This document shows positions 8,407 through 45,937 of a DNA stretch of 64,000 nucleotides, piece by piece. Below the pieces are notes generated by a model. It saw only the letters and a list, made by a program, of their open reading frames with translations, was not told the origin of the DNA and searched no databases. How positions within the stretch are numbered: position 1 is the first letter of the stretch; the number at the start of each line of letters is the position of its first letter. This DNA comes from Diplolepis rosae (lineage: Eukaryota > Arthropoda > Insecta > Hymenoptera > Diplolepididae): assembly GCA_030998225.1 (NCBI GenBank), contig JAPYXD010000753.1, positions 4,030,001-4,094,000 of the forward strand, written 5' to 3'. Both the position numbers and the translations under genes were made by a program.

Positions 8407-11400
8407 ATGAAGATGAAGACTCTTATCATTCTACTATGTGCGCATATAAGGGTGGGATATTCTTTAGGAGGTAAATACTTGTTTCATTTAAAATTCTAGT
8501 AATTGATCTTAAGTAATCAAGTAAATAAGATGAGATAGATTTTTTTCTAGTTTGCTATACACTGTTAAAGGAATAATTACACAGGTCTGCAAAAAAAAAT
8601 GTTGAATTTGTTCTAGAAAAGATAGGAGTCATTTCCAAAGTAGTTTTTCCCCTAGAATCCAAATCCGGCCTCGGAACTGCTCCAGCACGTCAAGTTTTTG
8701 AGTAATCCTAACCTAAAAGTGAAAAAACACGTTTTTTCGCTTTATTTGAGCACCCATAACTGCGCGAAATTTTATTATTTTTAAAATCTGAAAAAACCAC
8801 CAAAAAGAGCCAATTTTCAGTTTTCCATTTCACTGATTATTTATATGTATGATTTGAACTTTTATAACCAGAGATATCGCCAAATGAAAAAAAAATTGGA
8901 GGTTTTGCAATGAGCGACATATGAAGGAACAAACTTATAGGACGTCAAATTTGTTTTTTATTCTTGTTTCTGCTGAACGAGGCACTACATGGACGACAGA
9001 TCATTAACGGCAGGTGAGGCTCGACTTTTCACACCCCAAGTACGCTGTAACGTCCCTTCATATGTCGCTCATTGCGAAACCTGCAATTATTTTTTCAATT
9101 GTCGATATCTCTGGTTATAAAAGTTCAGATCTTATATATAATTAGTGAAATGGAAAGCTGAAAAGTGGCTCTTTTTGGCGGTTTTTTCAGATTTTAAAAA
9201 TATTAAAAATGTGCGAAGTTATGGGTGCTCAAATAAAGCGGAAAACCGTGTTCTTTGCACATTTAGGTTAGGATTACTCAAAAACCCCGGATCCGGTTTC
9301 TACGCTATAAATTGCTTCGGAAATGATCTTTATCTATTCCAGAACAAAACCATGCAGACCTGTGTTATTATAGCAAATGAATGAACAACAACAAATGAAC
9401 TTTTATGCACGAAGAAAATTGGACAGAAAATCTAGTTTATTTATTTGTTATTCAAGTTCATTTGTATTTAACTTTGCAGATTCATTCTGAAATTTTCGAA
9501 TTATCGTAAACAATATAATCTACTATGATAATTATGGAATTATTCTATACTCGTTTTTTCGTTACAGTTAAGAGTAGCGCAATGTTGTGTATTGCGCTAC
9601 AGAGGAATTTAATGTAAAAATCGAACTGCGTATGCGCCTATAGCCATACAGCATCGGTTAAACCTCGACTACGTCTTGGCTTCGATCTCCTGCGAGCATT
9701 GTCGCTCGTCGCGCAATAACCCTCATTGTGCGCCTAGGCACGTAATATACTATTCTAGTACATGATATGTTATTCTTCTTCCCACGTGAGAAATATTGTG
9801 AAGTTCATGTACATACGCATACATTCCTAACTTCCCATATTTTATTTTAACTGCTGATAATCCTAATAAATTCGAATTGGAAATTCGGTTTAGACTAATC
9901 CATTGTTTTCTTTTCACTTAGGGGTCAGATCAAATGAATTCGAATTTCGAATTTTCAATAGGGATGTTATGACATAGTATATTATGTGCCTAGGCGCATA
10001 ATGAGGGTTATTACGCAACGAGCGACAATGCTCGCAGGAGATCGAAACTAAGGCGTAGTCGAGGCGCGATCAGTCCTACGAGCATTTTAAGCGAGTCTCC
10101 TAATTACCCGAATGGTGTGCATTGGCACATATTCTATTTTATGTGACTTCGGCGCATATACGAATTTTTATGCGTACACTCGAATCCAATCTGAAAAGGT
10201 CGAAATTGCCGTGATTATCGCCCATCTCACTTGACATTTCGCGAATACTTCCGGCCATTTTGATTTTCTCTTTCTTGTGTAGTAGTATCTTCACTCAACG
10301 GTAGCGTATTGTAATAGAGCATGCGCAGTTCAAATGTACAAATCTTTGTCAGTAGGGTGCTAACGCTGTACGAAGAAGAAGAAGAATAAGAAGAAGATTG
10401 TACTCCGCTGTATAACTATAGGCGCATGCGCAGTTCAATTTTTTCATTACATTCCTCTGTAGCGCAATACACAACATTGCGCTACTCTTAACTCTAACGA
10501 AAAAACGAGTTTACGCGCCAGAGGCACATAAAAGTAATTGATTACCTTTGAATCTTTCGTATATAAAAGAAATTTCTTTTTCCTACAAGGTTATCTCAAG
10601 CTCTTTGGTGTTTTAATGCACAACGAGAATATTTTCGGCAGTGTATTCTTATATACACCATATGAAGCTTTAACTTCAATTAATGTAATAAAAAAATACA
10701 AGGAATTTGGATTAAATGAGAACTTTCCGAATAATGTTTTGGTTAAGTTCGGATTGGATACACATGATACAATACAGGCGTATGGTATTGATACTTATAA
10801 ACATTCTTTGATTGAAGGACTTATAATACTTAAAGTGAGTAATTTTACGCTTATCAGACGGTTCATATGTCATCTTACAGAATCTTAAATATTTACATAC
10901 TTCTAATTACAAAAATTAAACATTGCTGTAGTTGAATGGGGAAGTTAAGGAGCCGATAAAGAATGACGTACCGAAAGATTCGTCATTTATTCTGAATGCT
11001 CCTGTTCCTGGAGCTGGTTTCTACCTATTAAAATGGGTTATAAATCATGGAAATCGTAAGTTTGATGTGTTGAGGACATTTTAAATCTTTATTATATTCA
11101 TGCTGGGTTACTATAGAGTGTTGACAGTAGGTTTTTTATTCAATTGTGTTATCGTCAAATAATTTTTTTCAGAAAGAAAGCTAAAATATGAATATCATAG
11201 ATATGGAAAGGATGATCCTAATAAAGTATTTATAATTGCTTCAAAAGAAACCTTTGAAGTAAATATCAAGATTTTTACAGTTAAATTAGAAAAATATATA
11301 TACAGAGTGGGCACGAGTGGGTTGCAGAATAGGGAATATAATTGGGAGTAGTTTAGTATACGAAATACCGCCCAACATGCACTTTCGCTATTCGAAAAGA

Positions 11401-13700
11401 TCTTTTTCAGGGGTTTTTTTGAAATTCGCGCCAGCTCGAAAGAGGTCGTGCATGTCTTGCGCATGTCTGTTCGCTTTTTTCTAGGTCGGTAATAGTGAAA
11501 CCTGTCTATATTTAATTTTAAATATGGTACAGGTTAGGTTTTCAAATGTCATTTTTGAAAAAATAGTAAAAATATTAAAATTAAAAGTGTTATGTTTTAA
11601 AAATATTGTCGAAAGTACGGCAGAATTTTAAACAACAGTGAGTGAATTTATTATTCAGACACACAAGTGTAAATAGTTGAAAATTGGAATCAAGTGTGAC
11701 AGCAAGAAGCTCACCTTTGTAGTGTGTGATAAAAAATATAAATTTTAAACAAATAAAGAGCTTTTTTGCTCTAAAAGATTGATAAATGAGAACAGGAATA
11801 ATTTATGGCATGGAGAATGGTAAGATTTTAAATCTCTATGATAAAAAACATTGAATATATTTTTAATGTAAAATTTTCAATTACAATAATATGTTTGAAA
11901 TTTTCAGAAAAATATCTACTCACTTGAAATGAAGTTAAAAAAAAAAATTAAAAATTTGACGGGAAATTCAGATAAGTATTTTTTTTCACTTACAATGATT
12001 TTCTTGAAAAGAGACGTTTACTTTGTGAAATGTTTTTTTTCTTTTTCAGAAAGAGTCAAAAATGAAGGAAGGGGGAAAACAAAGGATTTAAGAACTAAAA
12101 TTGTGTAGGTATTTATGTTTCTTATAAGTTGCAGTAGCAAAAGTACATAAATAATAATTGTTCCCGGGACTAGAAGAAAGGTTTCAAAATTCTGTAAACT
12201 GGCTCAGGAGTCTATGTTCAAGTATTCTGTTAGTTCTTATACTAAAAAGTTGTAGAAAATTATTTTTACAAATCTTCAGTACTCATAGCGGCCGGTCTAG
12301 AGTGGCCAAGTTCTAAATACACACAAAACATTACCTAAACCTTTGACTGTAGCCAAAATAATATCTATAAATTCTTTCAATTCAGTTCATAAGTAGCTAT
12401 CACTGTCTATTATCAGTTCCCACAGCTAAGCTGTATAATTTGTGATTTAAAAAAAATTTTGAAACATTAAATGGTGTTTTTGGAGTCAAATCATCGATAG
12501 CCAATGATTATTGTAAAAATTGTTCCCGGGACTACAATTAAAGTTTTGAAATTCTGCAAACTGGCTCAGTAGTCCTAATTTACATACTCTATCAGTCCTC
12601 ATAGTAAATAGTTCTGAAAAATCATTTTTTCAAAACTTCAATACTCATAGCTGCCGTTCTAGTGGCGAAGTTCCAAATACACACAAAATATCACATAAAT
12701 CCTTGACTGTAATTAAAATAATTTCTCTAAATTCTTCTAATTTGGTTCTCAAGTAGCTATTCCTGTCTCTCATCAGTTCCTAAAGCTATACTTTATAATT
12801 TGTCATTTTAAAAAAATTTCAAAAACCCTCACTGATGTTTATGTAATCAAATCCTCGATAACCAACGATTATTGTAAAAATTGTTCCCGGGACTAGAATA
12901 AAAGTTTTAAAATTCTGTAAAGTATCTCAGAAGTCTTAATTCTCGTACTCTATCAGTCCTCATAGCAAACAGTTCTGAAAAATCATTTTTACAAAACTTC
13001 AATACTCATAGCTGCCGTTCTAGAGTTTGCTGTTTGCTACTAGGACTGATAGAGTACGAGAATTAAGACTTCTGAGATACTTTACAGAATTTTGAAACAT
13101 TCGACAATATTTTTAAAACATAACACTTTTAATTTTAATATTTTTACTATTTTTTCAAAAATGACATTTGGAAACCTAACCTGTACCATATTTAAAATTA
13201 AATATGGACAGGTTTCACTATTACCGACCTAGAAAAAAGCGAACAGACATGCGCAAGACATGCACGACCTCATTCGAGCTGGCGCGAATTTAAAAAAAAA
13301 CCCTGAAAAAGATCTTTTCGAATAGCGAAAGTGCATGTTGGGCGGTATTTCGTATACTAAACTACTCCCAATTATATTCCCTATTCTGCAACCCACTCGT
13401 GCCCACTCTGTATATAATTGTGTCATCTATTTTTCTTCATCAAGAAAAAATAAAATGTAAATCTTCTTTACTTTACAGGGATTCGTGGGTTGCCCTATAT
13501 TTCAAAGAAGTAAGCTTGTAGCAATTGGTTCTGACTATGATAAAGAGTCAGGACGTCTTTACTTTATACCAATCACAAAATTGAAAAATAAATTGAAATT
13601 AAATTTTGAACCTCCTAAACGGATGAGAATAGATGAAAGCAGTTCAAAAGCTCAAAGTGAAGGAACATCGGCTGGAAATCATAAGCATAGAAGGACATAA
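8407..13700 (+). CDS. Array copy 1: secreted triad-less serine-protease-homologue-like protein
   Basis: Five exons: 8407-8470, 10590-10834, 10932-11055, 11173-11258, 13479-13700 (phases 1,0,1,0; 246 aa, stop TAA). Exon 1 encodes a signal peptide (MKMKTLIILLCAHIRVGYS). I infer a chymotrypsin fold with no catalytic triad. GSVFLYTPYEALTSINVI (38-55) resembles the GGSLI..LTAAHC block with Asn53 at His57. GLIILKL (98-104) resembles DIxLIKL with Gly98 at Asp102, exactly 45 residues later. GFVGCPIF (174-181) resembles GDSGGPL with Val176 at Ser195, and the phase-0 intron lies just before it, as in trypsin genes. The usual disulfide cysteines are missing. The Lys/Ser-rich tail may be disordered. Introns 1 and 4 hold foldback and TIR elements. 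A poly(A) signal AATAAA lies near 13805. It could instead be a novel lineage-specific secreted family; exon structure is firmer than fold assignment. Confidence 0.72.
8580..9364. mobile_element. Foldback element in intron 1 of copy 1
   Basis: Termini CACAGGTCTGCA and TGCAGACCTGTG, arms of about 350 bp complementary to each other, spacer about 8935-9050. Flanked by TTA on both sides. Copies 2 and 4 lack it (their intron reads AGGAATAATTAG or similar), so it inserted after the copies separated. Confidence 0.75.
9545..9754 (+). mobile_element. Short inserted repeat, forward copy
   Basis: Inserted between GAATTATT and CTAGTACATG, which are contiguous in copy 2 (about 18030), with a possible 7-bp duplication TATTCTA. 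Begins ACTCGTTTTTTCG. An inverted, longer relative lies at about 9971-10511. Confidence 0.6.
9971..10511 (-). mobile_element. Inserted repeat, inverted longer copy carrying promoter-like motifs
   Basis: Reverse-complement relative of 9545-9754 extended by about 330 bp. On its minus strand it has an NRF1-like palindrome (GGCGCATGCGCA at 10421-10432), a second half-matching site near 10319, and an adjoining YY1/ETS-like block (AAAATGGCCGGAAGT, 10250-10264). No coding sequence was recognised. Confidence 0.55.
11303..13410. mobile_element. TIR element with three internal tandem units (intron 4 of copy 1)
   Basis: Terminal inverted repeats of about 320 bp starting CAGAGTGGGCAC. Flanks are TATATA on both sides, and copies 2-5 show the unbroken site. 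The centre holds three units with a period of about 361 bp, each containing TTGTTCCCGGGACTA (near 12159, 12521, 12882). Non-autonomous. The CAG start resembles hAT termini, but the target duplication is 6 bp or an imperfect 8 bp, so the class is uncertain. Confidence 0.8.
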
Positions 13701-13842
13701 TCATCACTTCCAAAGATAGAAGGCTTGTCTCTAAGTAAAACTGAAGAGTGATCAAGAAAAAATTGTGTAAAAATTGTAGGACTCAATGTCAACAATTTTT
13801 CGAAAATAAAGAAATGAGAAATCATAAAATCAATTAAAACAT

Positions 13843-15286: not shown

Positions 15287-15288
15287 TA

Positions 15289-16747
15289 TTGGATCTATAA
15301 CTTAATTCGTGCGGTTTGCTAAGATATGGCGTAACTTGATTATTATTCCATCGTTCTAATATTCCGAACATGCATTGGATAGCTACTGTCATCGAGCGTC
15401 TTTTTCAGTATATGTCATTCATTTGAAGCGTAAACAACAATAATTTTCTTTCACTCAAATATTTCGAACTTTGCCTGAAAAAGTGTTTTTGTGGGGAGTT
15501 CTTCTTCATTACTTTAATATAAAGAAAACTGCTACTGAAAGCCATCGTATTTTGGTGGAAGTTCATGGTGAACATGTTCTAGCTGATCGAACGTGCCAAA
15601 AGTGGTTTGCACGATTTAAAAGTGGTGATTTTGTCTTGGAAGACGAAGAACGTCCTGGGCAGCCAAAAAAGTTTGAAGATGAAAAACTGGAAGCATTACT
15701 CGATGAAGATTGTTGCCAAACACCAGAAGAGCTCGCAGAATCTTTGGGAGTCACTCAAGCAACCATTTCAAAACGTTCAAAAGCAGTCGGATACATTCAA
15801 AAGCAAGGAAATTGGGTTCCACATGAACTCAAGCCGAGAGACGCAGACGTTGAAAGGCGGTTTTAAAAGTCCGAAATGCTGCTGGAACGCCACAAAAAGA
15901 AGTGATTTTTGCATCGGATTATTACTGGTGATGAAAAATGGATCCATTACGGTAACCCCAAGCGCAAAAAATCATATGTGAAACCCGACCAACCAGACAA
16001 ATCAGCGGCAAGGCCGAATATCCATGGCGCGAAGGTAATGCTCTGTATTTGGTGGGATCAGAAGGCAGTGTTCACAGATTGCGTAAGATTTCTGCTCCCA
16101 TCATGGATCCCACCAGCTCATTGCGTCTTCATCATTCAACCAACTTCTGGCAGTGGAGCGAGGAAGAAACCATGAGCTGGTGGGATCCATGGTGGGAGCA
16201 AAAATCTTACGCAATCTGTGAACACTGTCAGAAGGGTGTGCTGTATTATGAGCTGCTAAAACCGGGTGAAACCATCGATGGAGAACGCTACGAAACACAA
16301 TTAATCCGTTTGAAGAGAGCAATAGCCGAAAAACGCCCGGAATATGCGACCAGACACGAGGCAATAATTTTCCATCATGACAACGCTCGGCCCCATGTTG
16401 CTATTCCGGTTAAGAACTATTTGGGAAACAGTGGATGGGCAGTTTTACCCCATCCGCCTTATAGCCCTGACCTTGCCCCTTCTGACTACCATTTGTTCCG
16501 GCCGATGCAGAACGCCCTCACTGGAATACGGTTCACATCAGAACAGGGTGTTAAAAATTGACTTGATTCATTCTTGGCCGCCAAGCCGGCGCAGTTCTTT
16601 TGGGATGGAATCCACAAATTGACAGAAAGATGGGAAAAAGTCATAGCTTCAGGTGGGCAATACTTTGAATAATACTATTGTACATGTTTTTCTTAAATAA
16701 ACGTTTAAATTTTGAAAAAAACCGCACGAATTAGGTTGCAGATCCAA
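15289..16747 (+). mobile_element. mariner (DD34D-type) transposon, inactivated
   Basis: TTGGATCTRYAACYTAATTC inverted ends, TA on each side (15287-15288, 16748-16749). Without the 170 bp gained by the nested MITE it is 1289 bp, the normal mariner length. The transposase runs from about 15471 (the initiating codon appears to be TTG; a true ATG seems lost). It has the HTH region (LLHYFNIKKTATESHRIL), ITGDEKW with the first catalytic Asp, FHHDNARPH with the second, and YSPDLAPSDYHLF with the third. Stops at 15864-15866, near 15903 and at 16559-16561, plus the insertion, destroy the frame. Confidence 0.9.
16066..16227. mobile_element. hAT-type MITE inserted in the mariner transposase
   Basis: A 162-bp palindrome with about 50-bp inverted repeats beginning CAGTGTTCACAG. 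Perfect 8-bp target duplication TCAGAAGG at 16058-16065 and 16228-16235. Both the duplication length and the CAG-N-G start fit the hAT superfamily. Removing it restores the transposase sequence WWDQK...GVLYYEL. Confidence 0.9.
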
Positions 16748-17804
16748 TACTTCAATCGTCGGATAGACTAACAGATAGGAAAAGATAAATATTACCAGAC
16801 ATAGGGATAGAAAAAGATAGATATTCCCGGTCACTCTAGATAAGTGCAGATTTTAAAAAAAATAGAGTTTTGGGGATGCAAAGTGATGGGTTGAAAGAGA
16901 TAGAAATGTTCTATCTTTTCCAATCCCCCAGTTCCTATCTTTTTCAATCTTTTTACTTCCAACAGGGAAAACAAACCGTTCACGTTCTCGTGCAGTGCGC
17001 TCAGCCGAAAATATTGCTACTGTTGCCCAGAGTGTGCTTGAATATCCATCAACATTAACTCGTCATTGTTCTCAGAAAGTGAACATTCCTGGAAATTCTC
17101 TAAGGAGAATTTTGCATAAAAACCTCGGTATGAAGGCCTATAAAGTTCAAATAGTCCAAGAACTGAAGCCTCATGACCATCCGATGCACCGTTTTCGAAA
17201 ATAGAATAATCAGCTGAAATTCTGATGCTATTTGGACGCCTCAGAACTATGATTTGACCACGTTGGACTATCTTTTGTGGGGAGCCGTTAAGGATAAGTG
17301 TTACGCTAACCATCCAGAGACGATTGAGGCTTTGAAACACGAAATCGAAGTCGTCATTCATGGAATTGAAACCCAAACAATCGAAAATGTACTGAAAAAT
17401 TGGGTTGATCGAATGGGGTACCGTAAGGCCAGCCGTGGCAGTCATTTAAATGATGTTGTGTTTCATTCTTAAATAGAAAGGTTCCATCTTTCTAGAAAAA
17501 ACCATACTTTTGAAAAAATATCCAAAAGTTTTTTTTTTATAGCCGATTCAAATTCCAAATGTTAGATGGTCCACCCTGTAGTTATTGCTTTTTATACAGA
17601 AAAACAAATATCTCATTTCGAAAGCAATTGCAAGTATTTATTATGTACAATAAATTAAGATAAAAAAATCATAAATTTATTAAAAGCTCATAATAGCTTA
17701 AGTTTATTCTTCACAATTTATAGACCTTGCGTAATAATAATGACACAGTAAATTATACCTATATATAGCTGCACAAATTTTTCACAGTATAGTTTTGAAG
17801 ATCA

Positions 17805-20800: not shown

Positions 20801-22052
20801 AGCAGAAGAACCATTTTTCATAACATTTCTTTTTTTTAAATGTGGGCCATGATGACGTATTGCATTTTATGTTAGCTGTTTTTTACTTTTGTATCAACAT
20901 GATACCTACTTTCTTAATGCCTAGGGTTGAAAGTACTCACAAACGTAAAAACATCTATTTTCACCTCGCTATAGCGATGCATTGAAATCCGAATTTCCAT
21001 AGGGATGTTATGAGAAAGTAATTGATTACCTTTGAATCTTTTGTATATAAAATAAATTTCTTTTTCCAACAAGATTTGTTCAAGCTCTTTGGTGTTTTGG
21101 TGCACAAAGAGAATATTTTTGGCAGTGCATTCTTATATACATCAAAGAAAGCTTTATCTTCTCATAATCTAATAACAAAATACCAGGAATTCGAAAAAAA
21201 CGCAGAATTTCCGAATAATGTTTCGGTTAAGTTAAGACTTGATATATATCATGAAATACAGACGTATAAAATTGCTAGCTATGAAAAATGTTGGATCGAA
21301 GGTCTCATAATCCTTACAGTGAGTAATTTTACACTTATTAGCCGGTTCTCATGTCACACTGCAGAATCTTAAATATTAAGTACATATTTCTAATTACAAA
21401 AATTAAACATTACTGCAGTTGAATAAGAAAGTTGAGGAGCCGATAAAGAATAACTTACCGGAAGATTCATCATTTATTCCGAATCAGTTTGCTTATGAAA
21501 TTGGTTTCCATGTACAAGAATGGGATAAGATTAATGATAATCGTAAGTTTTATGTGTTAAAGACATCTTAAACCTTTATTATATTCATGATGGGTCACTG
21601 TAGAGTGTAGACAGTAGGTTTTTTCCAATTGTTTCATAGTCACATAATTTTTTTCAGGAAAAGGGCTTGAATATGAATATAATAGATTTGAAAAGGATAA
21701 AGTTCTTTATAAAGTATTTATAATTGCTCCAGGAGAGACCTTTGAAGTAAGCATCAACATTTTCACAGTTAAATTTGTAAAAATAAATGTATATCGTTGT
21801 ATCATCTGTTTTTCTTCATCAAGAAAAGGTAAAATGTAAATCTTCTTTACTTTACAGGGATTCGTGGGTTGCCCTATATTCCAAAATAATAAGCTTGTAG
21901 CAATTGCTTCTAGCTATGATAAGGGGTCAGGACGTCTTTACTTTATCCCCATCACGTATTTGAAAAATAAATATCCATGTTTTGAACTTCCTAAAAAGAT
22001 GAAAGTGGGTGGAAGCAGTTCAAAAGCTCAAAGTGAAGGAATTATAATTTAG
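17805..22052 (+). CDS. Array copy 2: secreted triad-less serine-protease-homologue-like protein
   Basis: Five exons with the family phases: 17805-17868, 21074-21318, 21419-21542, 21658-21746, 21858-22052 (238 aa). Signal peptide MKMKTLIVLLCTLIKVEYS. Motif equivalents: FGSAFLYTSKKALSSHNLI, GLIILTL (Gly at the Asp102 position), GFVGCPIF (Val at Ser195). A conserved TATA block precedes the start (TATACCTATATATAGC at about 17755). Exon 4 is one codon longer than in the other copies. The C-terminus ends early, at SEGIII, because a 69-bp hairpin (22048-22116) has been inserted and supplies the stop codon; copy 1 runs on at this point. Intron 1 holds three palindromic MITEs and a satellite-like block. 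Confidence 0.72.
18440..19098. mobile_element. TIR element CCCAAGTGCGAA in intron 1 of copy 2
   Basis: Perfect inverted ends CCCAAGTGCGAA and TTCGCACTTGGG. The interior is full of short GGCC/CCAGTA words (for example GTAATGCCGACTTT three times near 18722-18895), in the style of the CCAGGTGG element at 6584. No transposase. Confidence 0.7.
19128..19921. mobile_element. MITE with CACGGAGAAAA termini
   Basis: Ends CACGGAGAAAAATGGATATT and AATATCCACTTTTCTCCGTG, with TA on both sides. Interior rich in GATATT/AATATC. The uninterrupted site is seen near 36015 (GTAACTAGGGAAA). TA target and palindromic ends suggest a Tc1/mariner-dependent MITE. Confidence 0.75.
20036..20495. mobile_element. MITE with CACTGTAAGAAAT termini
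   Basis: Inverted ends CACTGTAAGAAATAT and ATTTTTTTACTGTG, TA on both sides, interior of alternating TTTCC/GGAAA words. The right half of the same element survives in copy 3 at about 27397-27602, where it marks a deletion breakpoint. Confidence 0.75.
20505..20815. repeat. Intron-1 satellite-like block, copy 2
   Basis: Two units of the GCAACTAGGGA...TTTGCGAGTGTG...GAGCAAAG repeat, followed by the GACCCGCAGAATGCAAAA variant. Expanded versions stand at the same place in copies 4 and 5. Confidence 0.65.
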
Positions 22053-26239: not shown

Positions 26240-27330
26240 TTATGAGTGTGTGAAAGAACGTAAAAACGGTTTGTTAACAACAGATTAAAATTTTGAGGGT
26301 GTTAGACAACGTTCATACACCGTTTCATGTTATACTAGACGAGACCGAGACCTACAACCTCCACTAGGTCACTTGAAAAGTTCATGCAGTTTTTTTTGTT
26401 TTTGTAGCACCGTGTTATAGAATTATTCTGATTCGCCTTAACTATTATTATCCAGGAAAGCATGAAATTATTTCCATGATTTCCAGTTTAAAAGTAAAAG
26501 ACTTGATTTGCTCCAATATGTTTTTAATAATGAAAATAACCACGACTTCTAGGTAAAAACGGGTTCTTCAGACACTACAGAATGTTGTAAAGGAAGAGTT
26601 AAGGGGGTCCCCTGAGTGATATTTTTTTAAAAATCGATATTATTTTGCAATTCTTGGGCAAGATTGAAAAAAATCTACTGAACATTTCAACTGGAAATCG
26701 TATCTAATTAATCTAACAAGAATACCCAAAGTACCCACGTAGCGGTTTTTTAAAATTTTGTATTTTTTATAGCTCATAACATAACGAGAAAATGCATTAG
26801 AACAATCGATTTTCAGTAAAAAGACCGACACTTTATCAATTTTCAAAATTTTGACCAAGTCCTACGTGGGTGACTCGACCACTACATAGCAAATAAGGAA
26901 ATTTTTTTTTCTACTGGTAACTTGAAAAAACAATTTTTCTAGTAGCGTGTCATAAACTGCATGTTATTGCCACTTTAGTGCAAAGACATCTATTTTTTGA
27001 CCCCGAGCAGGAAGAAATCTTGTGCAACACGGGAAAAACATTCATTTTCTCTAGTTGCACAATACACTATTGTTTGCCCCGTAGGGAGCAATAGAATGCA
27101 TTTTATAACCCGCTAGTAGTTAAACTCTATTAAATTCTGAATCACTTACTGAGCAATTTTTCGAATATCTATTAGTAATAAAATTTTTCTCATTGCCGAA
27201 ACAATCATAATATTTATACTTCTACATATAAAACCCAGACTCGAATTTTGTCTTCGAAGTATCTAAATCGTAAAATATACTTGAAACTTTTTATGTGCTC
27301 AGTAAAACAAATGGTTGAAGTTTATTCCTC
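26240..27330. other. Repeat-derived and AT-rich sequence before copy 3
   Basis: No gene seen. 26995-27115 is a fragment of the intron-1 satellite (GGGGAAAAACATTC..., GGGAGCAATAGAATGCATT). 27130-27330 resembles the upstream flank of copies 4 and 5 (ATTGCCGAAACAATCATAA). Confidence 0.5.
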
Positions 27331-27339
27331 ACATCTAAT

Positions 27340-27396
27340 AGACCTTTCGTAATAATAACGACACAGTAAATTATACCTATATATAGCTGCAAAGAT
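27340..27396 (+). promoter_or_regulatory. Orphan promoter of copy 3
   Basis: The family promoter block (CGTAATAATAACGACACAGT, then TATACCTATATATAGC) is intact up to CTGCAAAGATTTTTTTT. It then jumps straight into the MITE right half, so exon 1 is gone. Confidence 0.75.
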
Positions 27397-27901
27397 TTTT
27401 TTTTGGATCTTTTTCCACATAAATTATGAAATATATCAATTTTTCTTAATAAACTGGATATTTCTTCAACCAAACAGTAGGAACTATTTCCAGTTCTATG
27501 TATGAAATATTTCCGACTATATCTTTGGAAAAATTTACGACCCATTTGTATTTTAAACTGTCCGACTATTTTCGGAAAAATTTCCGAAAATTTTTTTACA
27601 ATGTATGAAATAGTATATTATGCAACTAAGGATAAAAAAGTTTGTTTTGCGAGTGTGAAGTTTAATGCACGAGCAAAGCGACGGTAACAACCACACGAGT
27701 TAGCTGTTTTTTACTTTTATATCAACATGATACCTACTTTCTTAATACCCAGGGTTGAAAGTACGCACAAGCGTAAAATCAATTATTTTCACTTCACTAT
27801 ACAGGCAATGAAATTTGAATTTTTTAGCAAGGATGCTATGAGAAAGTAATTGAATACCTTTGAATTTTTCCTATATGAAATAAATTTCTTTTTCCTACAA
27901 G

Positions 27902-28919
27902 ATAGCATCAGTCTCTTTGGTGTTTTGATACACAAAAAGAATATTTTTGGCAGTGCATTCTTATATGCACCAAAGAAAGCTTTATCTTCTGATAATCTAA
28001 TAACAAATTACCAGGAATTCGAAAAAATCGCAGAATTTCCGAATAATGTTTCGATTCTTTTCGGATTCGGAATAAATGATCAAATACAGAAGTATAAAGT
28101 TGCTACCTATAAAACATGTGTGATTGGAGGACTCATAATCCTTACAGTGAGTAATTTTACACTTATCAGGCGGTTCTCATATCACATTGCAGAATCGTAA
28201 ATATTAAGTACATACTTCTAATTACAAAAATTAAACATTACTGTAGTTGAATAAGAAAGTTGAGGAGCCGATAAAGGATAGCATACCGCAGGATTCGTCA
28301 TTCATTTCCGATAGTCTTTATGGTTCAGGCAGTTTCAATGTACTAAAATGGCCTAATGTTTGTCAAAATCGTAAGTTTGATGTGTTGATGTTATTTAAAA
28401 CCTTTATCATTATTATGCTGGGTCACTATAATGTTTAGACAGTAAGTTTTTTTCAATTGTGTTATGGTCACATCATTTTTTTCAGGAAGAATGATAAAAA
28501 GTGAAATTTATACATGTACACTAGATGAAAATCATAATCAATATCTAGATGCTCCAAAAGAGACCTTTGAAGTAAGTATCAACATTTTTACAGTTAAATT
28601 AGAAAAAATATATGTATATCTTTGTGTTATCTATTTTTCTTGATCAAGAAAAAGTAAAATGTAAATCTTCTACACATTATAGGGAATTGTGGGTTGCCCT
28701 ATATTCCAAGGTGGTAGTCTTGTAGCAATTGCTTCTAGCTATAATAAGGAATCAGGACGTCTTTACATTATATCTGTTTTAAGCTTAAAGTATTTCTATC
28801 CAAATTTTGAAGCTCCACAAAATAGTGGAGAAGTATCGACTGGTAATCGTTGGCTTAGCAGGGATAGATTATTTATGACAATTACAAAATGCTTAATGCC
28901 AAGTAAAAGTGAAGAGTGA
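27902..28919 (+). pseudogene. Array copy 3: exons 2-5 only, signal-peptide exon deleted
   Basis: Exons 27902-28146, 28247-28370, 28486-28571, 28683-28919 keep open frames and family splice sites. Motif equivalents are FGSAFLYAPKKALSSDNLI, VIGGLIILTL and GIVGCPIF. Exon 1 is absent: the promoter joins the MITE at a shared T run (about 27390), matching copy 2 from 17785 to 20296, a loss of about 2.5 kb. A second deletion in the 3' UTR (near 28973) removes the AATAAA signals kept in the other copies. With no signal peptide and no usual poly(A) signal it is probably a recent pseudogene, unless an alternative first exon exists. Confidence 0.75.
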
Positions 28920-30570: not shown

Positions 30571-30574
30571 CTGG

Positions 30575-35086: not shown

Positions 35087-38000
35087 ATGAAGACTCTTAT
35101 CGTTCTACTTTGTGCGCTTATAAAGGTTGAATATTCTTTAGGAGGTAAATACTTGCTTTATTAAAATTTCCAGTAATTGATCTTAATTAATCAAGTAAAA
35201 AAGATGAGAGAGATTTTTTCCTAGTTTTCCATACACTGTTAGAGGAATAATTAGCATCTTATAATTCTTCACTGAAAACAATAATTTATAAGACAAATGT
35301 ACTTTTATGCACGAAAAAAATTGGATATTAAATAATAAAAAGTTCTAAAAGGAAATGTTTTTGAACCTCCATTTTTCTATTATTAAAAATGATATCGGTT
35401 TCATTTTTATTTAGCTTTGCAGTTTCATTTAAAAAATTTTGAATTATCGTAAACAATATAATCTACTATAATAATCATAAAATTATTTTTCTAGTACATG
35501 ATGTATTATTCCTCTTTCCGCGTGAGAAATACTGTAAAGTACATGTTCATACGCATACATTCTTGCCTTTCCATGTTTTATTTTAACTGATAATAATCCG
35601 ATTGTATATCAATTTTTTTTCGTACTTAGAAAGCCAGCATTTGTTTAATAGTAAATTGCGTGACACGGGGGAAAAAATAAAGATTTCAATGAGTGTGAAG
35701 TTAGCTGTCTACTCTCTAAATTTGAATCAGTTAAAATCTACTGATTATCAGTGAAATTTGACTGACTCAAATAGCTAAAAAGAGTTTACTGTAAATCAGT
35801 CAAATTTCATTGATTAATTCAGTGAAAATTGACTGATTTGACAGTGAGAAATATTTTTTCACTGATGAATCAGTGGAAATTAACTGATTTAACAGTGAAA
35901 AATTGACTGATTCAGATTTAGAGAGTACAGAAACGTGGCTAGATCTCACACAAGTTTAAATCTTTTCTTATCTCCTCATATCACGAATCACGCATTTGTA
36001 TATTGTGTAACTAGGGAAACAGTATAGAGATAAATAGTATAGAAAATAGTATATTATGCAACTATGGAAAACAAAAATTTATTTTGCGAGTGTGAAGTTT
36101 GATGCCTGAGCAAAGCGAGATAATAACGACTCGACTGAAATGAATGTTCTTCCCGTGTCACACACGATTTTTTTTCTACGAGGCGTTCAAAAAATGGATA
36201 TATTTGCCACGCACGGGGAAATTAAATCCACTTTATGACCCGATAGTAGAAAAATGGTAATGCTTGTCCTGCAGGGGGCAATAAAATGCACTCTATGACC
36301 TGCTAATAGGAAAATTTATCTTATGCAACTAGGGAGAAAATGTATAATTTGCGAGTGTGAAATTTGATGCCTGAGCAAAGCAAGAGCAACAATCACACGG
36401 AGTAAAATAAATGTTTTTCACGTTTCTCACACGTTTTTTTTCTACGAGGGGGTCAAAAAGTAGATATATTTGACACGCGAGGGAAAATAAAATCTACTTT
36501 ATGACCCTATTAGTAAAAAAATGGTATTTCTTGTCCCGTAGGGGGCAATAAAGTTCAATTTATGACCCGCTAGTAGAAAAATCGATTTGCTTGTCCTGCA
36601 GGGGTCAATAAAAGCACTTTATGACCCGCTAGTAGGAAAATTTATATTATGCAACTAGGGAGAAAATGTATAATTTGCGAGTTTGACATTTGATGCCTGA
36701 GCAAAGCAAGAGCAACAACCACACGAGTAAAATAAATGTTTTTACGTCTCACACGATTTTTTTCTACGAGGGGGTCAAAAAGTGGATATATTTGACACGC
36801 GCGGGGAAATAAAATCCACTTTATGACCCGCTAGTAGAAAAATGGTATTGCTTGTCCTGCAGTGGGCAATAAAATGCACTTTATGGCCTTCTAGTAGAAA
36901 AATTTCTATTATGCAACTAAGGGAGAAAATGTATAATTTGCGAGTGTGCAATTTGATGCCTGAACAAAGCAAGAGCAACAAGCACACGAGTAAAATAAAT
37001 GTATTTCACGTGTCACACACGATTATTTTTCTACTAGAGCGTTAGAAAATGGATTCATTTGACCCGCAGAGTGCAAAAAAATTGACTTTCTGACCCGCTA
37101 GTTGAAAGACCATTTTTCATAACATTTATTTTTTTTAAACAACATGTTACCTACTTTCTTAATACCCAAGGTTTAAACTACTCACAAGCGTAAAATCAAT
37201 TATTTTCACTTCGCTATACAGGCATTGAAATTTGAATTTTTTAACAAAGATGTTATGAGAAAATAATTGAATACCTTTGAATCTTTCATATATAAAAGAA
37301 ATTTCTTTTTCCTACAAGATAGCATCAGTCTCTTTGGTGTTTTGATGCACAATGGGAATAATATTTTCGGCAGTGCATACTTATATACATCAAACAAAGC
37401 TTTAACTTCTTATAATGTAATAGACAAATATCAGGAATTTGAAAAAAACGGGAAATTTCCGTATAATGTTTCGATACGTTTCGGATTCACACCAAATCTT
37501 GAAGAACAGACGTATGGAATTGTTACCTATAAATATTGTTTGATAAAAGGACTTATAATCCTTACAGTGAGTAATTTTACACTTATCCGACAGCTCTCAT
37601 GTCACATTGCAGAATTTTAAGGGGACTTTTACTTTCTAAATTTAAAAAAAGACAATATTTAAATATTAAAAAAAAAACTATTTTATTTATAATTATAATT
37701 TTTTTCACATACATTGTTAACAATGTTTTAAGGTGTACAAAAAAATTTTTTTGGGCACTTTTAATTACTTTTAACCACTGCAGAGGGCGTCTTTCAAAAG
37801 ATGCATTTTAATTTGCAGGACACATTTCTGCCTTCATGTAAAAAATTTATTTAAAATTGCAACGCGATTCAATTCATGAGACTTGAAACTAAACAATAAA
37901 CCTTTAAAAAGTTAATTTTTTTATATTTGTATGGCCTTTATACGCGATTTTATAAAAAGGCTGTTTTGGGGATGAATTTACCCCTGTACTAAAAATATGG

Positions 38001-40357
38001 GGTGGTATTTTTTAACTTTTTAGAGTTTTATTTACTAGTTGTTTGTATAAAGTATCAAACAATTTTAGTTTACTGAAATTGGTTTGTTAGATTTTGAGAA
38101 AAACGTCTCCCAGATTTAAACAACGTGATTTCGAGAAAAACACGTTTAAAGTTTTTTACATTCTCATCATGGATGAGAAGGTATTGGTTTCATGTGAAAA
38201 ATGACTTTCGAAATTTTCATTAAATCTTTACGTTTTGAGACCCCCTGAGTCAGAAAAAATGGTTTTTACGAGTGTCTGTCTGTCTGTTTGTCTGTAGTAG
38301 GTCGTGTGCGGCATAACTCTCGATAGAATTATCAGATTGAATTGAGCTTTGGTACACTTTATCAGAGCCGAAAAAGTAAGGACAAGTTCGTTAACCAGCC
38401 ACATCCAATCAAAATTGAGGGATTGAGCACTACTTTTGTGTTTTTAAAAATAAATTTTTGAAAAAATCAAAAATTCCGAACCTGGTTTTTGATAGTGCTC
38501 ATAAATCTCTACAAATTATCCTAATAACATTTTTTGATTAAATCAAAATTAGAAATGTTACAGCATATTCAAATTTGAAAAAAGTCAATATCAAAATTCC
38601 ATTTTCCAGCTAAATTATACGAGATACTAAAAAACGTTATGATACAATATTATTGAATACATAAAGACCCACAAATTTTAATTATAACATTTTTTCATAA
38701 GATGCATATTTTTCTTTTTAATTAAAAAAAAAACTATTGAAAATCCAAAATTCAATTTTTTAACAATAATATGTAAAATATGAAAAAAACGTAAGAATAC
38801 AAAGTTGTTAGTTTCAAAAAGATCTACAAGTATTGTCTCACACATTTTTTGATAAAACATATATTTTTCGTTTCAATTCCAAAAAATACGATTAAAATTA
38901 AAAACTTCCATTTTTTAGACAAAATATGTGAAATACAAATAAAACGTTTAGATACGAAATAAGCGTTCTTCTGTAAAATCGTTTCCTTAAATAAGGTCTA
39001 CGATTGTTTTTTTCTTTTTGAGAGATTTGGAAAAAAATAAATTATTTTAATCATGTAATTTATTAAAAAGTTACTGAAATGTATACAGAAAATCAAGCGC
39101 GAAGCGCGAGCGTCATGATGAGAATGTGTTCCTTAAGGCTGATTGAGCCTTAAGTAAATTGAATTTCCTGTTTCACTTAAATTCAAAAAGAAATTCAGTG
39201 ACTTTGAGAAAATGTGTAATTCATATCATCTGTAATATTATTATAAAACATAATCAGTCAAATTAAAAGCTTCAGTATCAAATTATAAGAAATAAACTTA
39301 AATGTATGCGAAGAGCACAAGACCGAACGCGAAGCGCGAGGTCCAGAAAGAACGGAGCGCGAAGCACGACGATCGAATCGCGCGCCGAAGGCGCGCTCAA
39401 ACTTGCGCGCGAAGCGCGCAATGCGAATGTGCCCGCAAAGCGGGCAGATTTTTTACTATAATTTTATTCAATAAAAGGGTCATAATTACATTCTTTCTAT
39501 TTCGAATTTCTTAATAAAATTTTAGGGCAGTATTTCTATGATACTAAGGAACATTTTAACATAAAAAAAATCGAATTTTTGAAAATTTAGAAAGTAAAAG
39601 TCCCCTTAAATATTAAGTACATATTTCTAATTACAAAAATTATACTTTACTGTAGTTGAATGAGGATGTTCAGAATTCTTTAGGGAAAAACCTACCGATA
39701 TATTCGTCATTTATTGCGGAGATGGTTTCTGGTGCACTTGGTTTCAACGTACTAAAATGGCCATATATTAATGAAGATCGTAAGTTTTATGTATTGAGGT
39801 CATTTAATACCTTTATTATTTTTAATCTCGGTCACTTCAGAGTGCTCACAGTAGGTTTTTTTCAATTGCGTTATCGTCACTTGATTTTTTCAGAAAGACG
39901 TCTCACATTTGATTGTCATTTACAAGGAACAGATGAAAATCGTGTATTATTTATATATGCTCCAGAAGTGACCTTTGAAGTAAGGATCAACAATTTTACA
40001 GTTAAATTAGTAAAATTAAATGTATATCTTTGTGTCATCTTGTTTTCTTCATCAAGAAAAGATAAAATGTAAATCTTCTCTATTTTATAGGGATTGTTGG
40101 GTTGCCCCGTATTCCAAAATAATAAGCTTGTAGGAATTACTTCCAACTATTATAAGAACTCAGGACGTCTTTACTTTATACCCGTTATTGACTTAAAAGG
40201 TTATTATCCAAATTTTGAAGCTCCGATAGTTAAGGAAGCCGAGAACAGTTCAGGAGTTCAAAGTGAAGAAACATCGACTACAAATCGTAGGCATAAGGCG
40301 AATAGATCAGGCATACCATTCATAAAATGTTTATCGTTCAGTAAAACTCAAGAGTGA
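35087..40357 (+). CDS. Array copy 4: secreted triad-less serine-protease-homologue-like protein
   Basis: Exons 35087-35144, 37319-37566, 39656-39779, 39894-39979, 40091-40357 (260 aa). The first ATG of copies 1 and 2 is ACG here, so translation should start at the second (MKTLIVLLCALIKVEYS). Motifs: FGSAYLYTSNKALTSYNVI, then GLIILTL exactly 45 residues after the Asn, then GLLGCPVF (Leu at the Ser195 position). One extra Asn codon in exon 2 is shared with copy 5. The C-terminal extension is longer than in copies 1 and 2 and ends IKCLSFSKTQE, similar to the end of copy 3. The promoter differs from copies 1-3: ATATATTTATAATTTACTG lies where TATACCTATATATAGC is expected. Intron 1 holds a satellite array; intron 2 holds a TTAA-flanked element. 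Confidence 0.72.
35712..35925. mobile_element. MITE CTCTCTAAATTTGAATCAG in intron 1 of copy 4
   Basis: A 214-bp element of repeated ACTGATT/AATCAGT words with inverted ends. TA on both sides, and copy 5 shows the empty site (GCTGTCTACCGAAACG near 43390). A diverged relative is nested at about 3826-4256. Confidence 0.8.
36040..37100. repeat. Satellite-like array in intron 1 of copy 4
   Basis: About four units of 260-335 bp, each with GCAACTAGGGAGAAAATG, ATTTGCGAGTGTG, GATGCCTGAGCAAAGC and a sub-repeat ending CACTTTATGACCCGCTAGTAG. Sub-repeat number varies, giving unequal unit lengths. Open frames within are repeat artefacts. Confidence 0.75.
37621..39605. mobile_element. TTAA-flanked TIR element in intron 2 of copy 4
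   Basis: Ends GGGGACTTTTACTTTCTAAA and TTTAGAAAGTAAAAGTCCCC; TTAA on both sides; the empty site is in copies 1-3. The same insertion, 420 bp long, is at 44730-45149 in copy 5, so it predates the split of copies 4 and 5. A T-tract element was later inserted into this copy. Confidence 0.8.
38158..39448. mobile_element. T-tract element with GCGCGAAGCGCG repeats
   Basis: Begins ACATTCTCATCATGGATGAG and ends in the hairpin GCCCGCAAAGCGGGC plus AGA. Six T on each side (38152-38157, 39449-39454). Copy 5 has the uninterrupted T run near 45007. Contains a TCTG microsatellite on the left and AGCGCGAAGCGCGA palindromes on the right. No transposase; class unknown. Confidence 0.75.
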
Positions 40358-40845: not shown

Positions 40846-41500
40846 GGGTCAATCCTAATTCGGTTTCATTTGGATTCAGTCGGATTGAAAATTCGGATCT
40901 GACTAATCCGTGTTTGAATTGGTTCGAATTGATCGGATTAAAAATTTGGTTGAGATTTATTCAGATTCTCTGGGATTGACTTGGATTAATTTGAACTAAT
41001 TTGCAACAAACGAGATCAAAACCTTTTTTCGGATTGTCTCCGAATGGTTCGGAATAAATTTCTATCCGAAACTTTCACTAGGGCAAGAATTCGAATACTG
41101 CCTTCGATCTTACGAACGCAAAGTGCTTCTGATAATCAGAAGTAAAAATCTAAGCTGTTCCGAGCCATTCCGGAATCTGTTTCCGAACCATTCCGAGACA
41201 TTCCGAACCAATCCGATAAACGTTTTGTATCTCGTTTGATGAAAAACGGCCAAAAATCAATCCAACTTAATCTGATTCAATCCGAGGCATCAATCCGAAT
41301 GAATCTGAACCAAGTTTTCAATTCGAAATAATCCGAATCAATCCGAGCTCGGATTAATCCAAACCGAATTTTCAATCCGAATGATTCTGAGGTCGGAATA
41401 ATCTAGATTAATTTGGATTGATTCGGATTATTTCGAATTCGGATTGATGCCTCAGATTGAATCAGATTAAGTTGGATTGATTTTTGGCTGTTTTTAATCA
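40846..41500. repeat. CGGATT palindromic element(s)
   Basis: Two abutting halves with the CGGATT-family words and the ACGTTTTGTATCTCGTTTGA landmark. Nearly the same sequence is at 48825-49500, so the segment was duplicated along with the array. Confidence 0.7.
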
Positions 41501-41509
41501 AAGTCGTAT

Positions 41510-42440
41510 TTGGGATGTCCAAAAGACGTCATAAGGATGTCTTTGCTAAGTCGATTTCTTGTGGATTTCCTATGTCCAAAAGACGTCCTTAAAACTTGAT
41601 GTGCCTGAAAGATATTAATTTAACGAACATGAATATGCTAAAGATGTCTTTAGACGCCACCAAGACGTTTCTGAGACGATTTGAAATTCGAATTTATACT
41701 TTTAATACTTTAACTATAGCCAGTAGACACAGAGACATTAGACGTGTTTCGGACGTCCTGCCAATTTCTGTTTAAGGCTTTCTGCTGTTATATGAACTTC
41801 ACAAGTCTGAAAGACGTCGTTCGGACATGATACGATTAAAAGACATCAATTGGACACACATGAAAGTCTTAGAGACGTCTTCAGACGTCTACAAGACGTT
41901 TCTCAGACGATTCAAAATCGTACAATGCCCCTATGCACACTTGAAACATTTGAATTTATACTTTTAATACTTTAACTACAACCAAAAGACGCAGAGACAT
42001 GTGACGTTTTAGGGACGTTCTGCCAATTTCTATTTTAGGCTTTTTGCTGTTATATTAAATTCAGAAGTCTGAAAGACGTCTTTTAGACATGATCCAATTA
42101 AAAGACATCAATTGGACACACATGAAAGTCTTAGAGACGTCTTTAGACGTCACCAAGACGTTTCCCAGACGGTTCAAAATCGTACAATGCCCCTACGCAC
42201 ACTTGAAATATTTGAAGTTATACTTTTAATACTTTAACTACAACCAGAAGACACAGAGACATTAGACGTGTTTCGGACGTCCTGCCAATTTCTGTTTAAG
42301 GCTTTCTGCTGTTATATGAACTTCACAAGTCTGAAAGACGTCGTTCAGACATGATACGATTAAAAGACATCAATTGGACACACATGAAAGTCTTGGAGAC
42401 GTTTTTAAACGTCATCAAGACGTTTCTCAGACGATACAAG
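41510..42440. repeat. GACGTC-family tandem array, about three units
   Basis: Units of about 262 bp with TTTTTGCTGTTATATGAACT, ACATCAATTGGACACACATG and GACGTCTTTAGACGTC. Matches the array at 50345-51640. Confidence 0.75.
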
Positions 42441-42793
42441 ATATTGTCTTTGTCGAATATTCTGACTGACATTATTAGAGTGTTTCGTTTCAGGCGTTAT
42501 TATTTGATAAAGTTCTCACTGCTGTTATTTTTATATTAAACTTAAGCTTAAAGTATGTCTTAGAGCAACAAAACGTTCTTTCAAAGATAAGAAAAACTTA
42601 CTTTATCACACAAGATTACATAACATCTTTAGAAATCAAATTTTCCTTATTACCGAAACAATGATGATAACGATTTTTATGCTTCTGCATATAGAATCGA
42701 AATAATGTATTCATGATTTTTTTACGCAGACACAAATATATTTATAATTTACTGCAAAGATTTTTCAGAGTATAGTTTTGAAAATCAACGAAG
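42441..42793. other. Duplicated upstream flank of copy 5
   Basis: Starts abruptly after the GACGTC array with ATTGTCTTTGTCGAATATTC, then matches the flank of copy 4 (34590-34650 and 34785-35086) almost base for base. This marks one edge of a recent segmental duplication. Confidence 0.7.
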
Positions 42794-45700
42794 ATGAAGA
42801 CTCTTATCGTTCTACTTTGTGCGCTTATAAAGGTTGAATATTCTTTAGGAGGTAAATACTTGCTTTATTAAAATTTCCAGTAATTGATCTTAATTAATCA
42901 AGTAAAAAAGATGAGAGAGATTTTTTCCTAGTTTTCCATGCACTGTTAGAGGAATAATTAGCATCTTGTAATTCTGCACTGAAAACAATAATTTATAAGA
43001 CAAATGAAGTTTTATGCACGAAAAAATTTAGATATTGAATAATAAATAGTTCTAAAAATAAACTTTTTAGAACCCCCGTTTTTCAATAATTAAAAATGAT
43101 ATCGGTTTGATTTTACATAAAATCTAGTTTAATGTTTTTTTATATATGTTTATTTGTATTTAACTATGCAGTTTCATTTAAAAAATTTTGAATTATCGTA
43201 AACAATATATTCTACTATAATAATCATAAAATTATTTTCCTAGTATACTTATGAACTGTATTTTATTTTAACGGATAATAATCCAATGGTATTAATTTTT
43301 TTTCGTTCTGAGGAAGCTAGCATTTGTTTAATAGTATATTGCGTGACACGGAGGAAGAAACAACGATTTCAATGAGTGTGAAGTTAGCTGTCTACCGAAA
43401 CGAGGCTAGATCTCACACAAGTTTAAATCTTTTCTTATCTCCTCATATCGTGAATCACGCATTAATATATTGTGTAACTAAGGAAATAGTATAGAGATAA
43501 ATAGTCTAGAAAATAGTATATTGTGCAACTATGGAAAACAAATATTTATTTTGCGAGTGTGAAGTTTGATGCCTGAGCAAAGCGATTTTTTTTCGACCAC
43601 GATTTTTTTCTACGAGGTGGTCAAAAAATGGATATATTTGCCACGCACGGGGAATAAAATTCACTTTATGACCCGCTAGTAGAAAAATCGAATTGCTTGT
43701 CCCGCAGCGAGCAATAAGATGCACCTTATGACCTGCTAGAAGGAAAATTTATATTATGCAACTAGGGAGAAAATGTATAATTTGCGAGTTTGACATTTGA
43801 TGCCTGAGCAAAGCAAGAACGACAACCACACGAGTAAAATAAATGTTTTTTACGTCACACACGATTTTTTTCTACGAGGGGGTCAAAAAGTGGATATATT
43901 TGAAACGCACGGGGAAATAAAATCCACTTTATGACTCGCTAGTAGAAAAATGGTATTGCTTGCCCTGCAGTGGGCAATAAAATGCACTTTATGACCTTAT
44001 AGTAGGAAAATTTACATTATGCAACTAGGGAGAAAATGTATAATTTGCGAGTGTGGAATTTGATGCCTGAGCAAAGCAAGAGTTAAAAGACCACACGAGT
44101 AAAATAAATGTTTTTCACGTGTCTCACACGATTATTTTTCTACTAGAGCGTAAGAAAATGGATTCGTTCGACCCGCAGAATGCAAAAAAATTGACTTTCT
44201 GACTCGCTAGTAGAAAGACCATTTTTCATAACATTTCTTTTTTTTAAACAACATGTTACCTACTTTCTTAATACCTAGGGTTGAAAGTACTTACAAGCGT
44301 AAAATCAATTATTTTCACTTCACTATACAGGAATTGAAATTTGAAATTTTTAACAAGGATGTTATGAGAAAATAATTGAATACCTTTGAATCTTTCATAT
44401 ATAAAAGAAATTTCTTTTTCCTACCAGATTCGTCCAAGCTCTTTGGTGTTTTAATGCACAATGGGAATAATATTTTCGGCAGTGCATACTTATATACATC
44501 AAAAAAAGCTTTAACTTCTTATAATGTTATAAAAAAGTATCAGGAATTTGATAAAAACATGGAATTTCCGGATAATGTTTTGATTCGTTTCGGACTCAAT
44601 CCAAGTCTTGAAGAACAGACGTATGAAATTGTTACCTATGCATATTGTTTGATAGAAGAACTTATAATCCTTACAGTGAGTAACTTTACACTTATCAGAC
44701 AGCTCTCATGTCACATTGCAGAATCTTAAGGGGACTTTTACTTTCTAAATTTAAAAAAAGACAATATTTAAATATTTAAAAAAAAACTATTTTATTTATA
44801 ATTATAATTTTTTTCATACATTGTTAACAATGTTTAAAGGTGTACAAAACAAAAATTTTGCGCACTTTTAATTACTTCTTACCACTGCAGAGGGCGTCTT
44901 TCAAAAGATGCATTTTAATTTGCGGGACTGAGATTGGTTTAGTAGATTTTGAGAAAAACGTCTCCCAGATTTGAAAAACGCGATTTCGAGAAAAACGCGT
45001 TTAAAGTTTTTTTACTATAATTTTATTCAATAAAGGGGTCATAATTACATTCTTTCTATTTCGAATTTCTTAATAAAATTTTAGGGCTAAGGAACATTTT
45101 AACATAAAAAAAAATCGATTTTTTGAAAATTTAGAAAGTAAAAGTCCCCTTAAATATTAATTACATATTTCTAATTACAAAAATTATACTTTACTGTAGT
45201 TGAATAAGGATGTTCAGAATTCTTTAGATATAAACGTACCGACAGATTCGTCATTTATTCCGAAGAAGTTTTGTAGTGGACTTGGTTTCAACGTACTAAA
45301 ATGGCCATATATTAATAAAGATCGTAAGTTTGATGTATTAAGGTCATTTAAAACCTTTATTATTTTTAATTTCGGTCACTTCAGAGTGTTGACAGTAGGT
45401 TTTTTTCAATTGTGTTATCGTCACTTGATTTTTTCAGAAAGAGATCTCACATGTGATTATCATTCATATGGAACAGATGGTAATGGTAAATTATTTATAT
45501 ATGCTCCAGAAGTGACCTTTGAAGTAAGGATCAACAATTTTACAGTTAAATTAGTAAAATTAAATGTATATCTTTGTGTCATCTTGTTTTCTTCATCAAG
45601 AAAAGATAAAATGTAAATCTTCTCTATTTTATAGGGATTGTTGGGTTGCCCCGTATTCCAAAATTTTCTACTTGTAGGAATTACTTCCAACTATTATAAG

Positions 45701-45937
45701 AACTCAGGACGTCTTTACTTTATACCCGTTATTGACTTAAAAGGTTATTATCCAAATTTTGAAGCTCCGATAGTTAAGGAAGCCGAGAACAGTTTGGGAG
45801 ATCCAATAAATAATGAATCTGGGAGCAGTTCAGGAGTTCAAAGTGAAGAAACATCGACTACAAATCGTAGGCATAAGGCGAATAGATCAGGCATACCATT
45901 CATAAAATGTTTATCGTTCAGTAAAACTCAAGAGTGA
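42794..45937 (+). CDS. Array copy 5: secreted triad-less serine-protease-homologue-like protein
   Basis: Exons 42794-42851, 44428-44675, 45200-45323, 45438-45523, 45635-45937 (272 aa). Signal peptide as in copy 4, again starting at the second ATG. Motifs: FGSAYLYTSKKALTSYNVI, EELIILTL (Glu at the Asp102 position) and GLLGCPVF (Leu at Ser195). Closest to copy 4: exon 5 is nearly identical, with a 12-codon insertion (containing DPINNESGSS) in the Ser-rich tail. Differences concentrate in the middle of exons 3 and 4, while the intervening introns are almost unchanged. Confidence 0.72.
43500..44215. repeat. Satellite-like array in intron 1 of copy 5
   Basis: Same unit as 36040-37100 but fewer copies; likely unequal exchange after the duplication. 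Confidence 0.7.
44730..45149. mobile_element. TTAA-flanked TIR element in intron 2 of copy 5
   Basis: A 420-bp counterpart of 37621-39605 with the same GGGGACTTTTAC ends and TTAA flanks, lacking the nested T-tract element. Confidence 0.8.

Follow-up and report, generated by a model that had tools for sequence, protein, structure and literature searches.

Arthropod serine protease homologues (SPHs; for example, PPAF-II) have an S1 domain without catalysis. In many SPHs just one or two residues of the catalytic triad are lost, the disulfides and the activation site are kept, and a clip domain may also be present. Azurocidin and haptoglobin are a second proposed likeness, in which the S1 fold is kept as a binding scaffold; in both, the disulfides are kept and the kinship with S1 proteases is recognisable by sequence. 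The gene array described here shares with the S1A proteases themselves (MEROPS S1A; Pfam Trypsin, PF00089) a collinear domain, Trp141, Gly196, a phase-0 intron before the site of the GDSGGP motif and a signal exon. In contrast to these proteases, it is without His57, Asp102, Ser195, Asp194, the IVGG start and the conserved disulfide cysteines, its core is about 30 residues shorter and a direct profile match is absent. It also resembles, without being related to them, the bicycle effectors of aphids, a rapidly evolving family of secreted proteins in which, according to an excerpt of PMC9168663, gene structure is better conserved than the protein (a saposin-like fold is given for bicycle proteins in an excerpt of PMC13041983). 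Among the matches listed in a search of the open-access literature nothing was recognised as the present family, and no open-access paper was found in which both 'serine protease homolog' and 'all three catalytic residues' occur.

The window, that is, the whole stretch of DNA analysed here, is 64,000 nucleotides long and corresponds to C425:4030001-4094000 in the 757.7 Mb, 428-contig genome of Diplolepis rosae. It includes five paralogues in tandem, all on the plus strand (Table 1). All modelled introns are of the GT-AG type and, in the complete copies 1, 2, 4 and 5 (five exons each), they fall in phases 1, 0, 1 and 0. The original prediction was of five paralogues sharing a five-exon structure; the number stands, and the structure applies to four of them, copy 3 being without exon 1. 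A signal-peptide-like first exon is present in four of the five copies. In copy 3 this exon was looked for and not found, despite the survival of an upstream remnant. A relic sixth copy lies upstream of the array.

Table 1. Coordinates of the array and of other features. Positions are those of the window unless a contig is given
Feature	Position	Strand	Exons	Remarks
Tandem array	8407..45937	+		ATG of copy 1 to last base of copy 5 stop codon
Copy 1, 246 aa	8407..13700	+	8407-8470, 10590-10834, 10932-11055, 11173-11258, 13479-13700	Gene model, GT-AG
Copy 2, 238 aa	17805..22052	+	17805-17868, 21074-21318, 21419-21542, 21658-21746, 21858-22052	Gene model
Copy 2 exon 2, in frame	21076..21318	+		N-terminal barrel equivalent; ALSSHN (His57 site), EGLIIL (Asp102 site)
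Copy 2 exon 5	21858..22052	+		GFVGCP at GDSGGP site, phase-0 intron just before
Copy 3 upstream remnant	27318..27400	+		83 bases, 90% identical to 17700-17782 before copy 2
Copy 3, exons 2-5 only	27902..28919	+	27902-28146, 28247-28370, 28486-28571, 28683-28919	Gene model
Copy 4, 260 aa	35087..40357	+	35087-35144, 37319-37566, 39656-39779, 39894-39979, 40091-40357	Gene model
Copy 5, 272 aa	42794..45937	+	42794-42851, 44428-44675, 45200-45323, 45438-45523, 45635-45937	Gene model
Relic sixth copy, exon 5 end and 3' region	7776..7992	+		blastn to copies 1 and 2
Relic sixth copy, second match	6408-6449			43 bases, to copy 2 intron 4 (blastn)
Gene D	C176	minus		
Less decayed relatives	C426:14434154-14492477			
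Further signal exons	C425:5850028 and C425:5860618			L062 2028 and L063 3618
Trypsin gene clusters	C349:12870060-12908833 and C350:17010992-17041376			
Inverted repeat arms	11293-11616 and 13097-13419			Within copy 1 intron 4
Mos1-like mariner	15444-16672			Downstream of copy 1
Dynein heavy chain-like exons	659-3370	minus		Probable
Cytochrome b561-type open frame	62360-62947			

An unsupervised joint alignment was made of four PDB proteases, four S1 proteins from the same genome (two of which have the same domain and one of which, L073, has Gly at 195), ten members of the family and gene D, a relative on another contig. It sets the three replaced triad sites where the original prediction had placed them: all five window copies have Asn at His57, Gly or Glu at Asp102 and Val or Leu at Ser195. 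Asn occupies the His57 column in all 11 family rows (D and the ten members); none of these rows has Asp at 102 or at 194, or Ser at 195, and all keep Trp141 and Gly196. The Asp194 column of the window copies reads F, F, I, L and L, and the Ser195 column, V or L in these copies, is K or R elsewhere in the family. The IVGG start is absent in the window family. In activated proteases the Ile16 N-terminus pairs with Asp194, and since the two are partners the missing start fits the loss of Asp194. Given homology, triad catalysis would almost certainly be absent. Judged from these columns and from the matches through D, the array proteins are SPHs in the broad sense (S1-derived, with at least one triad residue absent).

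The suggested loss of the usual cysteines is borne out by the same alignment: Cys is absent at 42, 58, 168 and 182 from all five window rows, and indeed from all 11 family rows, and by eye the window rows also have none at 136, 191, 201 or 220. Mature copy 1 has one Cys in total. The sole Cys common to the five copies sits in the motif G[FIL][VL]GCP, outside the chymotrypsin disulfide columns of the joint alignment, and its position is occupied in relatives by Cys, Ser or Thr. A distance of 45 residues from the Asn to the Gly or Glu had been reported for copies 1 and 4; it is present there but is not limited to them, being the same in all five copies (to Glu in copy 5). We rejected this spacing as proof of chymotrypsin kinship: this region is shorter in the C252 and C296 relatives and longer in D. 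From the Gly/Glu to the Val/Leu the window copies have 78-79 residues; the matching Asp102-Ser195 distance in chymotrypsin is 93. The Gly/Glu site may be polymorphic within the species, since an ENA open frame nearly identical to copy 5 carries Gly where copy 5 has Glu.

Simple searches had been expected to miss the array and they do so: at E≤10 Pfam returned no family for any of the five window proteins. PDB sequences gave no match when searched with the window-protein profile and a single match when searched with a ten-member profile (C3HR3_9r_shift4, E 0.94), which was taken as chance and rejected as a relative. With an HMM of 13 trypsin sequences, the scores of the window proteins fall inside the range of their own shuffles. 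A protein database search returned only three short frames from ENA, each nearly identical to a window copy and probably belonging to the same species or one very close to it; this search requires shared 5-residue words, so that distant relatives in other species may remain. Viral contigs gave no match. AlphaFold2, run on the five window exon-2 sequences alone, gave an unusable model (mean pLDDT 42.6).

Profile-profile comparison with trypsins, which had been proposed as a check, was not significant for the window proteins alone (13 trypsins; 10 of 60 shuffles as high). Against the same 13 trypsins, 0 of 60 shuffles were as high for 22 members without D and 1 of 60 for 23 members with D. The ten-member alignment scored 19.5 against six trypsins (shuffles 12.7 ± 2.2, 1 of 60 as high); 0 of 60 shuffles were as high without correlation scoring and 39 of 60 in global mode. 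The probability given by hhalign itself was at most 1.13% in all profile-profile runs, and we regard the result for the family as marginal; no conclusion is drawn from this comparison by itself.

The proposed descent from chymotrypsin-fold proteases is supported instead by a chain of matches passing through gene D, together with the joint alignment and a shared intron. The signal exon of D (MKTLINVVLCALINVACSE) resembles that of the window copies. At the place of trypsin NYNPDTLDNDIALL D reads NYDAKTPIFANIAIL; Asn stands at its His57 site, its exon 3 contains GW, and GYRGSP takes the place of GDSGGP. On the side of the array, BLASTP aligns 183 aa of copy 2 and D at 30% (E 3e-16, calculated for this one comparison), and the window HMM scores D at 61.1 bits, the best among 920 reported shuffles being 12.0. 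On the side of the proteases, Trypsin (PF00089) is the only Pfam family found for D at E≤10 (E 0.0014, 18.9 bits; cut-off 20.6) and the sole PDB sequence at E≤10 is 1m9u (E 1.7e-4), the earthworm fibrinolytic enzyme, a trypsin-like protease. Because the window copies match D, and D matches PF00089 and 1m9u, we infer S1A descent; the window family is very probably homologous to the S1A proteases. Only D matches PF00089 among 11 proteins tested over exons 2-5, and D exon 2 alone gives no Pfam family. In the HMMER alignment of D with 1m9u the Asn of D falls in a gap and a nearby His is paired with His57; the window copies are without this His.

Less decayed relatives occur on C426. These keep Asp102, within FADIAIL, and have Gly at the His57 site; their exons also include IHP[NL]YNP. 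When Pfam was run on 18 family sequences, PF00089 was found in three (D and two C426 exons), all under the cut-off. Four other family sequences drew unrelated Pfam families (E 0.014, 0.022, 0.041 and 0.3), which indicates the level to be expected by chance. D stands clear of this level and the two C426 exons (E 0.0076 and 0.21) barely so; the value of 0.0076, from an exon that matches Trypsin alone, would be weak by itself. The top PDB match of one C426 exon is TMPRSS11A (E 0.0034; chance matches from 0.15). The C426 exons score 12.9 and 9.3 bits with a 23-member HMM (0 of 1000 shuffles as high for each); with the five window sequences alone, 15 and 91 of 1000 shuffles are as high. Their apparent kinship to the window family is weak.

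The phase-0 intron that the original prediction had noted right before the GDSGGP equivalent is found in all five window copies and is common to all three multi-exon S1 genes read in the same genome. These three S1 genes also have an intron just after GWG/GYG, in phase 1 in L073 and in phase 0 in the two others, which thereby differ in phase from the third intron of the window copies. A PF00089 scan of the genome gave at least 18 rows that start at profile position 176 or 177, and the L073 match begins there with GDGGGP. Outside the window, all six complete models (D, three C252 genes and two C296 genes) show the window pattern of phases 0, 1 and 0 for introns 2-4. In D, the only one of them in which intron 1 was read from both sides, this intron is in phase 1; exon 1 was not located for the C252 and C296 genes. 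An excerpt of PMC3707919, cited with regard to vertebrate trypsin and kallikrein genes, gives boundaries and phases as largely conserved, and moth trypsins show different phase patterns (1-2-0 and 0-1-2) in an excerpt of PMC4676143.

Own-genome searches and an exon-by-exon HMM scan identified a family of at least 25 exon-2 genes, including the five window copies. This number was obtained from 28 rows by merging two split matches and dropping one match of E 0.4, and is a lower bound, the genome search scoring the best candidates only. The genes are distributed over C425 (5, the window), C252 (8), C296 (10), C424 (1) and C176 (1). A later search pointed to further relatives on C424 (6.86-6.90 Mb) and C426, from which four exon-2 pieces were read. 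When the window exon-2 HMM was compared with 12 relatives elsewhere in the genome, none of 1000 shuffles was as high for nine of them, and 1, 15 and 91 of 1000 were as high for the remaining three. Of 23 aligned members, 21 have Asn at the Asn site and the remaining two have Tyr and Thr; by eye, the four later pieces carry Lys, Asn, Gly and Gly there. A midpoint-rooted exon-2 tree groups the window copies with the C424 gene and D (support 0.95). Two further signal exons, which share 95% and 86% identity with those of the window, lie about 1.8 Mb away on C425, where two 9 kb stretches show no clear exons 2-5.

Among the window copies dN exceeds dS in all ten pairs, most strongly in the youngest (0.101 versus 0.047), and nonsynonymous divergence exceeds intron divergence in all ten (p 0.0056 to 3.8e-7); owing to their common history the pairs do not count as independent. 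The excess of N over S reaches significance at 0.05 in only two of the ten. In every pair, synonymous divergence is likewise higher than that of the introns, so that the introns may be under constraint and hence provide no clean neutral yardstick. The codon likelihood, calculated on a grid, peaks near omega 1.4 (lnL -2338.23 with omega free and -2340.40 with omega held at 1, on a grid of four kappa values); p is about 0.04, which is slightly too small owing to the coarse kappa grid. By eye, variation is greatest in two stretches, one from the Asp102 site to the GDSGGP site and one immediately ahead of the Asp102 site. The stretches of chymotrypsin that match these variable regions line the cleft.

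We consider it likely that the array encodes secreted, non-catalytic binding proteins of chymotrypsin fold, derived from S1A proteases and under diversifying selection. The results above support the amplification of S1A descendants in tandem, with loss of the triad, the Ile16/Asp194 pair and the disulfide cysteines. The chain would be exported via the signal-like exon and would retain the two-barrel domain fold, classical triad use and classical activation both being impossible for it. The variable loops would then present a changing surface for binding, shaped by antagonistic selection while the scaffold is kept. The co-evolving partner could be, for example, a host or prey protein (saliva, venom), a protein of the mate or a protease inhibitor; we put the chances of such a co-evolving binding role at about even. 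A bolder reading, to which we give little weight, is that a trypsin lineage has produced a large, lineage-restricted set of disulfide-free secreted effectors for which the fold is a mere scaffold, maybe acting in the reducing cytoplasm of host cells, with steps from active protease to unrecognisable effector retained in one genome. Disulfide loss, unusual in an exported domain, would fit a reducing target compartment such as this cytoplasm.

The array proteins might also be internal SPH cofactors, as in prophenoloxidase activation, with no outside partner. Immune roles are known for S1 pseudoenzymes of insects (described in an excerpt of PMC4676143). Ordinary S1 exons are numerous in the genome (157 PF00089 matches at the level of exons). 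However, a clip domain is absent and there is no room for one: the mature chain starts at the S1 domain, and no Pfam family is found in the window proteins. In addition, known cofactors keep their disulfides and a cleavable activation site, both absent here, and a gene-wide omega above 1 is, in our judgement, unusual for an endogenous cofactor. A role of this kind is rather unlikely. Decay of the copies into pseudogenes would be in keeping with the missing signal exon of copy 3, the relic upstream of the array and the loss of triad, cysteines and activation site alike. In a random-substitution simulation the youngest pair could be free of stop codons by chance (0.074), but in the other three of the four pairs this chance is only 0.003 to 0.009. 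The signal exon, splice sites and frame are intact in four copies, amino-acid change exceeds both synonymous and intron change, and Asn57, Trp141 and Gly196 are fixed across the 11 aligned family members, all of which makes decay improbable.

That the copies belong to an unrelated beta-rich secreted family, resembling trypsin by chance, is suggested by the lack of a direct trypsin match for the window proteins and by the unusable exon-2 model. We find it very improbable given that D, a clear relative, has a trypsin-like family as its only Pfam match and a trypsin-like protease as its only PDB sequence, and that the intron common to the S1 genes of the same genome agrees in place and phase. It is barely credible that a different chemistry is kept, for example with the Cys of G[FIL][VL]GCP as nucleophile: this Cys is present in all five window copies, but relatives have Cys, Ser or Thr at its position, the base site is without His, and both Asp194 and the free N-terminus, which give the oxyanion hole its shape, have been lost.

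If the array does encode non-catalytic binding proteins of S1A origin, an S1 protease domain has been carried beyond the reach of Pfam and PDB sequence searches, with intermediates persisting in the same genome. This would provide a testable case of the passage from an enzyme to an orphan secreted family. It suggests that other orphan effector families may hide old folds, which could be revealed by gene structure and same-genome intermediates.

Several other features were observed. The trypsin gene clusters on C349 and C350 include, among the matches listed, mostly full-length uninterrupted PF00089 domains. The inverted repeat arms in copy 1 are 97.8% identical and look like a fold-back element. 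The coding frame of the Mos1-like mariner (HTH_48, E 9.9e-17; Transposase_1, E 9.1e-11) is broken into pieces. Of four frames scanned in the dynein heavy chain-like flank, one matched DHC_N1 (PF08385, E 2.7e-4, under its cut-off), and the cytochrome b561-type open frame matched PF03188 (E 2.2e-16).
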